DNA of 64,000 nucleotides from Oceanobacillus caeni (GTDB lineage: Bacteria > Bacillota > Bacilli > Bacillales > Amphibacillaceae), in NCBI RefSeq assembly GCF_019037185.1, contig NZ_JAHHXM010000002.1, forward strand, positions 124,001-188,000. The letters are read 5' to 3'. Both the position numbers and the translations under genes were made by a program. Positions 6,348 to 61,576 of this stretch are shown here, piece by piece. Positions within the stretch are counted from its first letter, which is position 1; every line of letters starts with the position of its first letter. The notes beneath the pieces were generated by a model that saw only the letters and a program-made list of their open reading frames with translations, was not told the origin of the DNA and made no database searches.

Positions 6348-6500
6348 ATAAAGAAGACTTCCATCAATGGAGGTTTTCCTTCATCCCCCACTGATGGTTA
6401 GTCGCACTTCTTGGACCATTACGGTAGTTGATCTCCCACCCACCTTCTTTGTCCCCGGAAGCTTGAGGTGAGAGCCTTACTGCCCGTTTAGGTGAGATAA
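6348..6500 (+). repeat. HEARO/omega-RNA-like element, copy A (near full length)
   Basis: Starts AATAAAGAAGAC, then hairpin CCATCAATGG / CCACTGATGG, a conserved core TAGTCGCACTTCTTGGACC, and a long-range helix GGTAGTTGATCTCCC with GAGAGCCTTACTGCC, ending TTTAGGTGAGATAAA. Compared with copy D, the change to GGTAGT keeps pairing with ACTGCC through a G-U wobble, which suggests selection or recent origin as RNA. It lies in the 443-bp clpX-tig gap. The identification as HEARO-like rests on my recollection of the core motif. Confidence 0.6.
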
Positions 6501-6605
6501 AACTCCCAAAAATAATTTTAAAATAATTATTGTTATTTTAATTATTTCTTATACTATATGAAAGATATTTTCTTTTAAGTAGTATTTTACTATAAATAAG
6601 ACAAA

Positions 6606-39788: not shown

Positions 39789-40388
39789 ATGGAAATAAGA
39801 GACTTACAACAATTTATTCAACTTCAAGCTATTGTGAATATGACTTCTCACTTTAACTCTTCAGTAAAAAGTTCCCCTATGGCTGAACTAACGTTTAAGC
39901 ATATATTACAAGATAAAATGAACGAACTAATAGCGGATCAAAATATTAAGGAAAAACAGCCAAATCCTTTACCGAGCTTACCTAATAAAATGGAGAAAGC
40001 ATACATACCTACCTCTTCATACGATGCTGAAATTACAGAAATAGCTCGTAAATATAAAATAGATGAGAAATTGATTCACTCTGTTATTAAACAAGAATCA
40101 AACTATAACCCTTATGCTAGAAGTTCAGTAGGTGCCCAAGGGCTAATGCAGTTAATGCCAGCAACCGCAAAAGGATTAGGGGTTACCAATCCTTTTGATG
40201 TTAAGCAAAATATCGAGGGTGGTACCAGATATTTAGCCCAGATGTTATCCCGGTATAATGGAAATACAGAATTAGCATTAGCAGCTTACAATGCTGGTCC
40301 CGGTAATGTAGATAAATATAACGGAATCCCCCCATTTAAAGAAACACAAAATTACGTTCGGAAGATAATGAATCATTACTTAGCCTAA
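39789..40388 (+). CDS. Lytic transglycosylase (SLT domain)
   Basis: 199 residues: an N-terminal helical stretch (1-75) without a clear signal peptide and an SLT domain (about 80-195) with catalytic Glu103 in [40 protein letters not shown] and [12 protein letters not shown]. Cleaves glycan strands of peptidoglycan. Resembles B. subtilis YjbJ. The missing signal peptide suggests either non-classical export or action in the spore mother cell. Confidence 0.9.
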
Positions 40389-40448: not shown

Positions 40449-40734
40449 TATAAAGAAGAATAACCGTCAGTGGGGTTCCATTTATCCCCACTGATGGCAT
40501 CACGGACTTTTCTTCTGTGATTGCATGCTCTTTTGGCCGTGATAGCACGTGTCACGGACATTTCTTCGACGATTGCTTGCTCTTTTGGCCGTGATAACAC
40601 GTGTCACGGACATTTCTTCGACGATTGCTTGCTCTTTTGGCCGTGATAACAGTTAATCGCACTTATTGGATCTTTACGGGCAGTTGATCTCCCACCTACC
40701 TTTTTGTTTCCCCAGATGCTTAAGATGGGATAAA
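40449..40734 (+). repeat. HEARO/omega-RNA-like element, copy C (expanded)
   Basis: Begins TATAAAGAAGAA, has the hairpin CCGTCAGTGGGG / CCCCACTGATGG (a G-U wobble relative to copy D), and the conserved core AATCGCACTTATTGGATC with TTTACGGGCAGTTGATCTCC. Between hairpin and core it carries three 52-bp tandem units (40501-40656). The 3' strand is shortened: GATGGGATAAA joins directly, without the TCTTACTGCCC arm. It lies in the gap before cwlJ. Confidence 0.6.
40501..40656 (+). repeat. Three tandem 52-bp units inside copy C
   Basis: Units at 40501-40552, 40553-40604 and 40605-40656, each starting CACGGAC and containing GCTCTTTTGGCCGTGATA. Units 2 and 3 are almost identical; unit 1 has a few changes. 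Each unit can fold on itself through CACGG / CCGTG, and ACACGTGT palindromes stand at the junctions. Confidence 0.9.
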
Positions 40735-40804
40735 TGCCAAGTTTTTTAACACACAATGTCATTAATTTAACTTTTTTTCATACTATATTCTGGAGGTGGA
40801 AAAA

Positions 40805-41245
40805 ATGGCAAGAGTTGCTTACCGAAACGCAGACGTTAACTTAATGGCAAGGATGATGCGAGCTGAAGCTGAAGGCGAAGGTAAACTAGGGATGCTATAT
40901 GTAGGAAATGTAATTGTTAATCGTGCTGTAGCAGATTGTGTGGACTTTAATGAGTTAAGAACAATTGAAGATGTTATTTTTCAAGTGCAAGGAGGAAATT
41001 TCTCATTTGAAGCTGTTCAAAAAGGCAATGTTTTTTACCAAAGAGCAAGAGAATCTGAAAGAAGGTTAGCAAGACAGAATTTGGAATATTGGAGAAAACA
41101 ACCAGCGAAATATGCCCTTTGGTACTTTAATCCATATGCTCCATGCCCTCCCACATGGTACAATCAACCATTTGCTGGTCAATTTAAACAACATTGTTTT
41201 TATGAACCCGCGGCTGGAACATGTGATAGCGTGTACTCTGGATAA
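40805..41245 (+). CDS. cwlJ: Spore cortex-lytic hydrolase CwlJ
   Basis: Cortex-lytic enzyme active in spore germination, especially with Ca-dipicolinate. 146 residues; SleB/CwlJ Hydrolase_2 domain with ARMMRAEAEGEGK (catalytic Glu21), GMLYVGNVIVNR, FYQRARESER and LWYFNPYAPCPPTWYNQPF. ATG at 40805 is preferred to a GTG three codons upstream, which overlaps the GGAGGTG site. No gerQ (needed for its coat localisation in B. subtilis) is next to it. Confidence 0.96.
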   Translation: MARVAYRNADVNLMARMMRAEAEGEGKLGMLYVGNVIVNRAVADCVDFNELRTIEDVIFQVQGGNFSFEAVQKGNVFYQRARESERRLARQNLEYWRKQPAKYALWYFNPYAPCPPTWYNQPFAGQFKQHCFYEPAAGTCDSVYSG

Positions 41246-42641: not shown

Positions 42642-42797
42642 TATAAAGAAGACTCCCATCAGTGGGGCGTTCCTTCATCCTCCACTGATGGTTAGTCGCA
42701 CTTATCGGACCATTATGGGCAGTTGATCTCCCACCTGCCTTCTTTATTTCCCCAGAAGCTTGAGATGGGAGTCTTACTGCCCTTTTAGGCGGGGCAA
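42642..42797 (+). repeat. HEARO/omega-RNA-like element, copy D (best preserved)
   Basis: TATAAAGAAGAC, hairpin CCATCAGTGG / CCACTGATGG (10 perfect pairs), core TAGTCGCACTTATCGGACC, then GGGCAGTTGATCTCCCA pairing with TGGGAGTCTTACTGCCC (7 plus 6 pairs around an internal loop), and TTTTAGGCGGGGCAAA at the end. It fills the ysdC-dUTPase gap and ends 3 bases before the dUTPase stop codon. I use it as the reference copy. Confidence 0.65.
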
Positions 42798-42800
42798 ACA

Positions 42801-46262: not shown

Positions 46263-46452
46263 CACCTCCAAAGTTTTTTCGATACTGATCTATTTGACAA
46301 GTCTTCATACATGAAAAAAAGTGTCGGTAATACACCCACACATTCCAATTACACATAATAAATTTGGAACCAGTCAACTACACGAAACGTGCGTCGAACA
46401 GGTGAGAAGCGGGTGCTTCTACTTGTCTTTGAGATCATTTAATTTTCAACTT
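46263..46452 (-). promoter_or_regulatory. L20 leader RNA of infC-rpmI-rplT
   Basis: The untranslated leader contains GACAAGTAGAAGCACCCGC with GAAGCGGGTGCTTC-type pairing, CGACGCACGTTTCGTGTAGT, and GTGTGGGTGTATTACC followed by GACACTTTTTTTC, a terminator-like T-tract about 60 bases before infC. Location, length and the GGGTG hairpins fit the L20-binding leader of Bacillus. Confidence 0.75.
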
Positions 46453-46570: not shown

Positions 46571-46589
46571 ACCATTGCATTTATCGCAC

Positions 46590-46680
46590 CTAGACGAGCA
46601 GCCCGTAAAGGTCCGATAAGTACGACTAGCCATCAGTGGGGATGAAAGAAAAGCCCAACTTGATGGAAGTCTTCTTTATT
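46590..46680 (-). repeat. HEARO/omega-RNA-like element, copy E (3' truncated)
   Basis: Minus strand reads AATAAAGAAGACTTCC, part of the first hairpin, CCCCACTGATGG, core TAGTCGTACTTATCGGACC and TTTACGGGC, and then diverges. The TAAAGAAGAC start overlaps the thrS stop codon (46678-46676), so the element may have supplied the present end of thrS. Confidence 0.6.
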
Positions 46681-48664: not shown

Positions 48665-48942
48665 AAAAAACGCCCATCCCAATTGCATAACGCAAAAGGG
48701 ACGAGCGTAGTATAATAGTTCGTGGTTCCACCCTAGTTCCCGCTAAAATTAGCGGCTCTACATCTTTAACGCAGATGATACGCTATTCCTTACTATAACT
48801 TCTGGAAAAGAGTTCAAAGGTGGTAATTATTCAGGCCTATAGAGGAAGCTTTCAGCCAAACGACTTCCCTCTCTAATCTATATGTATCCAAAATAATCAT
48901 GTCCTTATCGTAACTTTTAACTTCAATAATCAATCTAAAGTG
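48665..48942 (-). promoter_or_regulatory. T-box leader of thrS
   Basis: AGGGTGGAACCACGA on the minus strand (48739-48725) is the T-box signature, followed by the terminator CGCTCGTCCCTTTTGCG / GGGATGGGCG with TTTTTT. Stem I includes GAGAGGGAAG. ACC in AATTACCACCTTTG is the likely Thr specifier. Confidence 0.9.
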
Positions 48943-61391: not shown

Positions 61392-61498
61392 CTAAATACC
61401 CCCTATAGAAGTAAAGTTTTCTTTAATTCTAATATTACCATTGAATGATAGCAAACAGGGAAAAGTTAGGTGAATTTTACACTTTCTTTACATTATGG

Positions 61499-61576
61499 AG
61501 ATCAACTGCTCCGTAAGTGCGACTAACCATCAGTGGTGGATGAAGTTCCCCCATTGATGGCAGTTTTCTTTATTAG
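61499..61576 (-). repeat. HEARO/omega-RNA-like element, copy F (3' truncated)
   Basis: Minus strand AATAAAGAAAACTGCC, hairpin CCATCAATGG / CCACTGATGG, core TAGTCGCACTTACGG with a short deletion, then CAGTTGATCTCC at which similarity stops. Lies between phoP and mdh. Confidence 0.6.

Follow-up and report, generated by a model that had tools for sequence, protein, structure and literature searches.

The window, i.e. the whole 64,000-nucleotide stretch of DNA that was analysed, corresponds to G000:C22:124001-188000 in a 3.57-Mb draft genome made up of 87 contigs. Flanked by genes for a lytic transglycosylase (39789-40388, SLT domain) and a cell-wall hydrolase (40796-41245, Hydrolase_2), three head-to-tail 52-bp units occupy 40500-40651 and lie inside one copy of a mobile element, referred to below as copy C of the host element (Table 1). 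TRF assigned this array a period of 52, 2.9 copies and 94% matches with a score of 262, the top score in the window (runner-up 65), and the lag-52 identity over 104 bp was at most 45% in the rest of the window. Pairwise identities within the array are 46/52 for units 1 and 2, 48/48 for units 2 and 3, and 42/48 for units 1 and 3; the identity of units 2 and 3 implies one recent duplication. A preliminary description of this DNA had reported both the three tandem units and the near identity of the last two, and both were confirmed. It had also placed palindromes at the joints, which holds for the second joint, carrying ACACGTGT, but not for the first, which reads GCACGTGT. The G at 40497 can be assigned either to the inserted block or, as the last base, to the host element's hairpin 1, and a second TAAA (40731-40734) directly follows copy C. 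With the locus as query, plasmid and phage collections returned a match only to the start of the adjoining hydrolase gene. Elsewhere in the window, a T-box leader (48694-48920, minus strand) and an L20 leader (46309-46430, minus strand) are ordinary.

Table 1. Positions of the host-element copies and 52-bp units in the window, and of the arrays found at contig ends. G023 is a genome of the same genus.
Feature	Position	Strand	Remarks
Composite mobile element (copy C)	40451-40730	+	280 bp, TAAAG to GGGA; absent whole at the orthologous site of G023
Hairpin 1 of host element, CCGTCAGTGGGG / CCCCACTGATGG	40464-40497	+	mean pair probability 1.0 with and without units
Inserted block	40497-40651	+	155 bp, linker between hairpin 1 and core; consensus without insert
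52-bp unit 1	40500-40551	+	43-nt inverted repeat + 9-nt linker TAGCACGTG; R1 48.5 bits
52-bp unit 2	40552-40603	+	linker TAACACGTG; R1 51.5 bits
Unit 3, 48 bp	40604-40651	+	same as unit 2 over full length; linker shortened to TAACA; R1 51.5 bits
Host-element core, short form, without ACTGCCC...GGTGGGA	40652-40730	+	87.5% identity to 42691-42770
Long-form host-element copy without units	42643-42798	+	R2 175.5 bits
Long-form host-element copy without units	6348-6501	+	R2 161.2 bits
Diverged or shortened host-element copy	46580-46679	-	R2 89.9 bits
Diverged or shortened host-element copy	61476-61573	-	R2 49.8 bits
Contig-end arrays	G000 C4, C12, C13, C20, C26, C27, C31, C38, C45, C49, C63, C77, C87		13 arrays

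The host element is interspersed, measures about 155 bp and has at least 150 matches in its own genome, a lower bound that includes short and diverged copies (150 of 1253 candidates scored, all 150 passing E ≤ 0.01). Using one long-form copy as DNA query (E ≤ 1e-4), it was detected in 51 of 159 genomes and in 20 of 46 genera of the family, own genome included; it is also present on one plasmid record, of Pseudalkalibacillus. The consensus (model length 157) starts with ATAAAG and ends with GGGATAAA. RNAalifold predicts a GACT/AGTC helix that encloses hairpin 1, followed by a GGGCAG/CTGCCC helix around CTCCC/GGGAG, with both-side changes in 5 of 27 pairs and a covariation term of about zero; in this predicted fold, the units are inserted into an unpaired linker, GTT, that joins hairpin 1 to the AGTC strand of the enclosing helix. 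Copy C had been described as having lost the 3' ACTGCCC arm. The absence of the arm is real, but it marks a common short form, found in 15 of 28 scored copies (29 examined; L020 was left unscored, and L021, scored as lacking the arm, appears by eye to be a degenerate long form). In a copy on C40 (L345, G000:C40:2550-3050, 218-262), an unrelated tandem with a period of 21 and 2.1 copies occupies the next linker, between GCACT and TATCGG.

An initial characterization of the host element as HEARO-like was not sustained, as RF02033, run over the complete genome at E ≤ 10, had 0 matches; it was also not among the matches of Rfam scans run at permissive thresholds, including those of 20 relatives' loci at E ≤ 1. 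HEARO inserts just before ATAAA or GTAAA, and the host element likewise has TAAA directly after its end, but the copies found here, of about 155 bp and 280 bp, are far below the length needed for an HNH gene. In design the host element is nearer to bcr1 of Bacillus cereus than to HEARO, a likeness by description. Reportedly, bcr1 is specific to the B. cereus group, whereas the host element is not limited to that group and extends over the 20 genera given above. According to the available text of two sources, bcr1 measures 147 and 167 bp (PMC2267715), forms stem-loops, occurs in 11 to 130 copies per strain and carries a TTTAT motif (= ATAAA) tied to mobility (PMC6542083). Compared with these descriptions, the host element is similarly interspersed, of similar size, and has stem-loops and ATAAA ends, the TTTAT/ATAAA end motif being present in its consensus (ATAAAG ... 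GGGATAAA).

The 52-bp unit was searched for in the genome and its relatives, as the preliminary description had suggested, and returned matches in other genomes as well as a dispersed family in its own. Here, a covariance model of the 43-nt unit, with 150 of 3379 candidates scored, matched 104 times at E ≤ 0.5 over the two strands, which amounts to 70 distinct unit places in 25 arrays when plus- and minus-strand matches at one place are counted once. Arrays hold 1 to 9 units, and neighbouring units are spaced exactly 52 bp apart in 39 of 45 cases. Each unit consists of a 43-nt inverted repeat (8-nt arms with 27 nt between them) and a 9-nt linker; in this genome the arms, TCACGGAC and GKCCGTGA, hardly vary, and the middle is array-specific and alike within an array. 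The joint pattern matched 24 times in forward and 8 times in reverse orientation, versus 0 and 0 for a reversed control. Eight of the 12 arrays away from contig ends have no overlap with ORFs of at least 90 codons, and the other four each coincide in part with one or two mechanical ORFs, 91-139 codons long; we read the arrays as intergenic. Altogether 23 of the 25 arrays lie outside any of the 150 scored host-element copies. The unit might, according to the preliminary description, have proved to be an ordinary element unrelated to the host repeat, and this is half the case, in that its family is independent.

Rfam scans of 14 array loci at E ≤ 1 returned a SAM riboswitch, located outside the array, as sole match. 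CRISPR-like arrays were considered and rejected: by eye, the centres are alike within arrays and different between them, and thus do not correspond to a constant repeat with unique spacers. Intrinsic terminators were rejected as well, with no T run seen behind the arms by eye. Arrays of other genomes had no match in plasmids or phages; in viral contigs the short joint pattern matched at least 120 stretches, and as none of the 80 listed had more than one match per strand, these were taken as chance. A strict whole-unit pattern, run over GTDB genomes from which the own genome was possibly left out, returned one locus, in Oceanobacillus sp. Castelsardo. Judged by title and in part by abstract, none of the open-access papers listed describes such arrays, which does not establish their absence from print.

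Folding was carried out with and without the units, as had been proposed, and hairpin 1 was kept both ways. In the predicted RNA fold of copy C, pairing across the two joints (CCGTGA-9 nt-TCACGG) reached mean probabilities of 0.65 and 0.46, and the stems within the units (TCACGG/CCGTGA) 0.0, 0.3 and 0.2. Each unit can form the CACGG/CCGTG hairpin of the preliminary description, but cross-joint pairing is preferred in the folded copy. As DNA, single units fold weakly, with -4 to -8 kcal/mol for the six units calculated. The element folds better than shuffles with as well as without the units. The predicted fold of copy C argues for tolerance of the insert rather than for a new domain.

Two of the 150 scored host-element copies contain units (coordinates compared by eye), namely copy C and L002 (C6:21952-22155), the latter a long-form element with one related unit at the same joint, the former a short form. 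Both inserts end alike (GGCA-TCACGG ... GATARCA-GTTA, hyphens marking the joints). In an alignment of 36 unit centres, copy C is matched by L002 at 19-21 of 25 positions, by the stand-alone three-unit array at C31:12186 (L003) at 16-20 of 25, and by units of the remaining arrays at no more than 15 of 25. The sites of both composites were compared with G023, a sister species, which carries the same stretch as the Oceanobacillus sp. Castelsardo record. Removal of the 280 bp of copy C leaves flanks of 64 versus 64 bp with 45 identical positions and 6 gaps, a poor alignment; removal of 199 bp at the L002 site leaves 124 versus 125 bp with 108 identical positions and 3 gaps. The joined flanks retain one TAAA, and the matching G023 sites read CAAA and TTAA, i.e. 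the target motif is not intact there. Each composite can be read as a single insertion, or as a single complete loss in G023. Because the sister species lacks each of them in its entirety, transport of the array as cargo is the most likely reading, and the absence of the composite there suggests a recent event. The array on C8 is also absent from the orthologous place in G023, together with about 45 bp beside it. Comparison of unit numbers with this relative, another check that had been proposed, revealed a difference in the C77:99.7k array, which is common to both genomes.

We consider it probable, at roughly 70%, that an independent 52-bp array was captured in a permissive linker of the non-autonomous element of about 155 bp, and that the element later moved together with the units it had taken up. 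The account rests on the two composite loci, the only two known. In a single event, units from an array similar to the one at C31:12186 would have been captured into the linker that separates hairpin 1 from the core; the composite would then have transposed with the units as cargo, and the difference in unit number (1 versus 3) may have arisen later through slippage or unequal recombination. Gene conversion between elements, or entry of a unit after the element had already arrived, would leave the same pattern as this proposed order of events, and the composites may have been lost in the sister species rather than gained here.

Among the alternatives, the likeliest is a separate entry of units into each element, through template switching or through insertion at a joint that is preferred. 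TGAT and GCA are common to the element joints and the array linkers (by eye), and the C40 copy holds a different tandem in a nearby linker; we nevertheless judge this course unlikely, given the ends shared by the two inserts and their centres, which are the most similar among the 36 units compared. There is also a small chance that the unit number is an artefact of assembly. The genome is a draft of 87 contigs, and unit counts are uncertain because another of its arrays holds undetermined bases; against this, single units and arrays occur at many sites, and units 1 and 2 differ at 6 of 52 positions, so that at least two units are probably real.

An origin in place, in which the element's own linker was duplicated into a satellite whose copies spread later, appears quite improbable. 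The preliminary description had envisaged a satellite growing in a permissive loop, and part of this stands: the linker is unpaired, the C40 copy has its tandem in the next linker, and local growth did occur, as seen from the identical units 2 and 3. The unit itself, however, belongs to an independent dispersed family and was not grown from the element. The 25 arrays have different centres and mostly lie outside the scored element copies, the canonical GTT linker contains no unit-like sequence, and arrays of other genomes have other arm sequences. Marginally less probable still is an added RNA domain, i.e. a transcribed element with the hairpins as a selected extension: the better-than-shuffled folds and the both-side changes of the host element are in its favour, but the rarity of units among the scored copies, the host-fold covariation term near zero, a predicted fold in which not all three unit hairpins are formed at once, the existence of arrays without the element, and own-genome arms without compensatory change led us to abandon the add-on domain of the preliminary description.

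On a wider scale, the 43-nt unit model found matches at E ≤ 1e-3 in 8 of the 159 genomes of the family and at E ≤ 5e-4 in 4 of the 398 genomes of the class, both counts including the own genome; at most 40 candidates per genome were scored in the family scan and 16 in the class scan, and true counts may be higher. TRF was applied to the matching stretches of eight other genomes, giving a period of 52 in G002, G156 and G254 and of 53 in G087, and no array in the fetched stretches of G055, G095, G152 and G296; the single unit of G152 measures 49 nt, not 43. In the Oceanobacillus sp. Castelsardo array the period is within 52-53 (TRF). G254, which belongs to a different family within the order, has 52-bp arrays of 9.9, 5.8 and 1.9 copies (L353, L355 and L352) with arms TGACGGAC/GTCCGTCA. 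Across genomes, the arms vary jointly and mostly still pair (TCACGGAC/GTCCGTGA, TGACGGAC/GTCCGTCA, TCAAGGAC/GTCCTTGA, TTACGGAC/GTCCGTAA). In a cross-genome alignment (A5, 23 rows) 96.2% of cells pair, a value to be read with the rows being hand-chosen and found mostly by the structured model, which favours pairing. Both-side changes are present in 4 of 8 pairs (10 cells), reached by 3 of 500 shuffles, and the covariation score is 0.241 versus 0.098 for shuffled alignments, with 0 of 500 reaching it; the number of pair types stands out less, being reached in 48 of 500 shuffles. The own-genome set (A1; 36 units, two of them from the sister species) contained 0 covarying pairs and no compensatory arm change. 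A functionless tandem repeat is expected to drift in unit length; the period of 52-53 bp kept in several genomes, together with the paired changes of the arms, indicates constraint on palindrome and spacing and turns what reads the palindrome into a testable question.

Contig ends offer a further view of the arrays, in that 13 of 25 lie within 250 bp of one (0.3 expected), although contig ends by nature expose repeats. The motif AAGTAGACA is found, exact, beside 12 of these 13 arrays, and with one mismatch (by eye) at the array on C26. By its sequence it looks like the end of an IS3-type insertion sequence, of which only ends were seen. The count of insertion sequences covers arrays only. Pairing of contig ends by eye gave putative 3-bp target duplications, GGG (C4/C13) and GCC (C87/C63), and the IS end had no match in the plasmid and phage collections searched. 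In G023, the array corresponding to C77:99.7k is split by an IS256-type insertion sequence (L349, G023:C36:133400-135900; transposase at 593-1777, PF00872, Transposase_mut, 1.7e-130), with GAAGAACAG apparently repeated on both sides (by eye). The contig-end arrays look as if the IS3-like insertion sequence preferred the array linkers.

These features recall REP-type repeats, also known as PU or BIME. In the available text of one source, REPs are intergenic palindromes in many copies and clusters into which insertion sequences, those of the IS3 and IS256 families included, are targeted (PMC1525189); the 52-bp arrays are likewise intergenic palindromes in many-copy clusters, and putative IS targets. 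The same text places the ends of IS1397 and ISKpn1, REP-targeting members of the IS3 family, within palindromic repeat units (PMC1525189), a likeness to the contig-end arrays described here, where IS ends are what was seen. In the available portion of another source, REP subfamilies have alternative complementary stem residues, as the 52-bp units do between genomes; REPs carry a GTAG or CGTC tag with loops of 2-20 nt (GTAG) or 4-5 nt (CGTC), form mostly inverted (HH, TT) dimers, and occur in listed phyla that exclude Bacillota (PMC3733652). The 52-bp units, in contrast, have no tag, a 27-nt centre and a direct head-to-tail arrangement. A GTAG or CGTC tag or its complement was found within 5 nt of an arm in 0 of 36 units of A1 and 1 of 23 of A5, and the 27 nt between the 8-nt arms exceed both loop ranges, into the first of which the 9-nt loop of the joint hairpin would fit. 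The arrays lack two defining features of REPs, the tag and the loop length.

The arrays most likely act as REP/BIME-like DNA palindromes held in one rotational phase, on which insertion sequences would land; 52 bp would correspond to about five helical turns and hence to a single phase. More tentatively, and in our judgement less likely than not, they may represent an unnamed repeat class of the Bacilli, in which palindromes arranged head to tail hold a fixed period of 52 bp and arms are rewritten in a matched way between genera, where insertion sequences land and which small mobile elements spread. If so, some protein or DNA-processing reaction would read the palindrome and its phase. The nested case at copy C illustrates how one repeat family may be spread by another.

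The array at C11:211192 begins about 70 bp past a host element. Several arrays are adjoined by a terminator-like hairpin of the type AGCAGAGCAAATTC.../...GAATTTGCTCTGCT, seen by eye for example at L067, L046, L276, L278 and L273.
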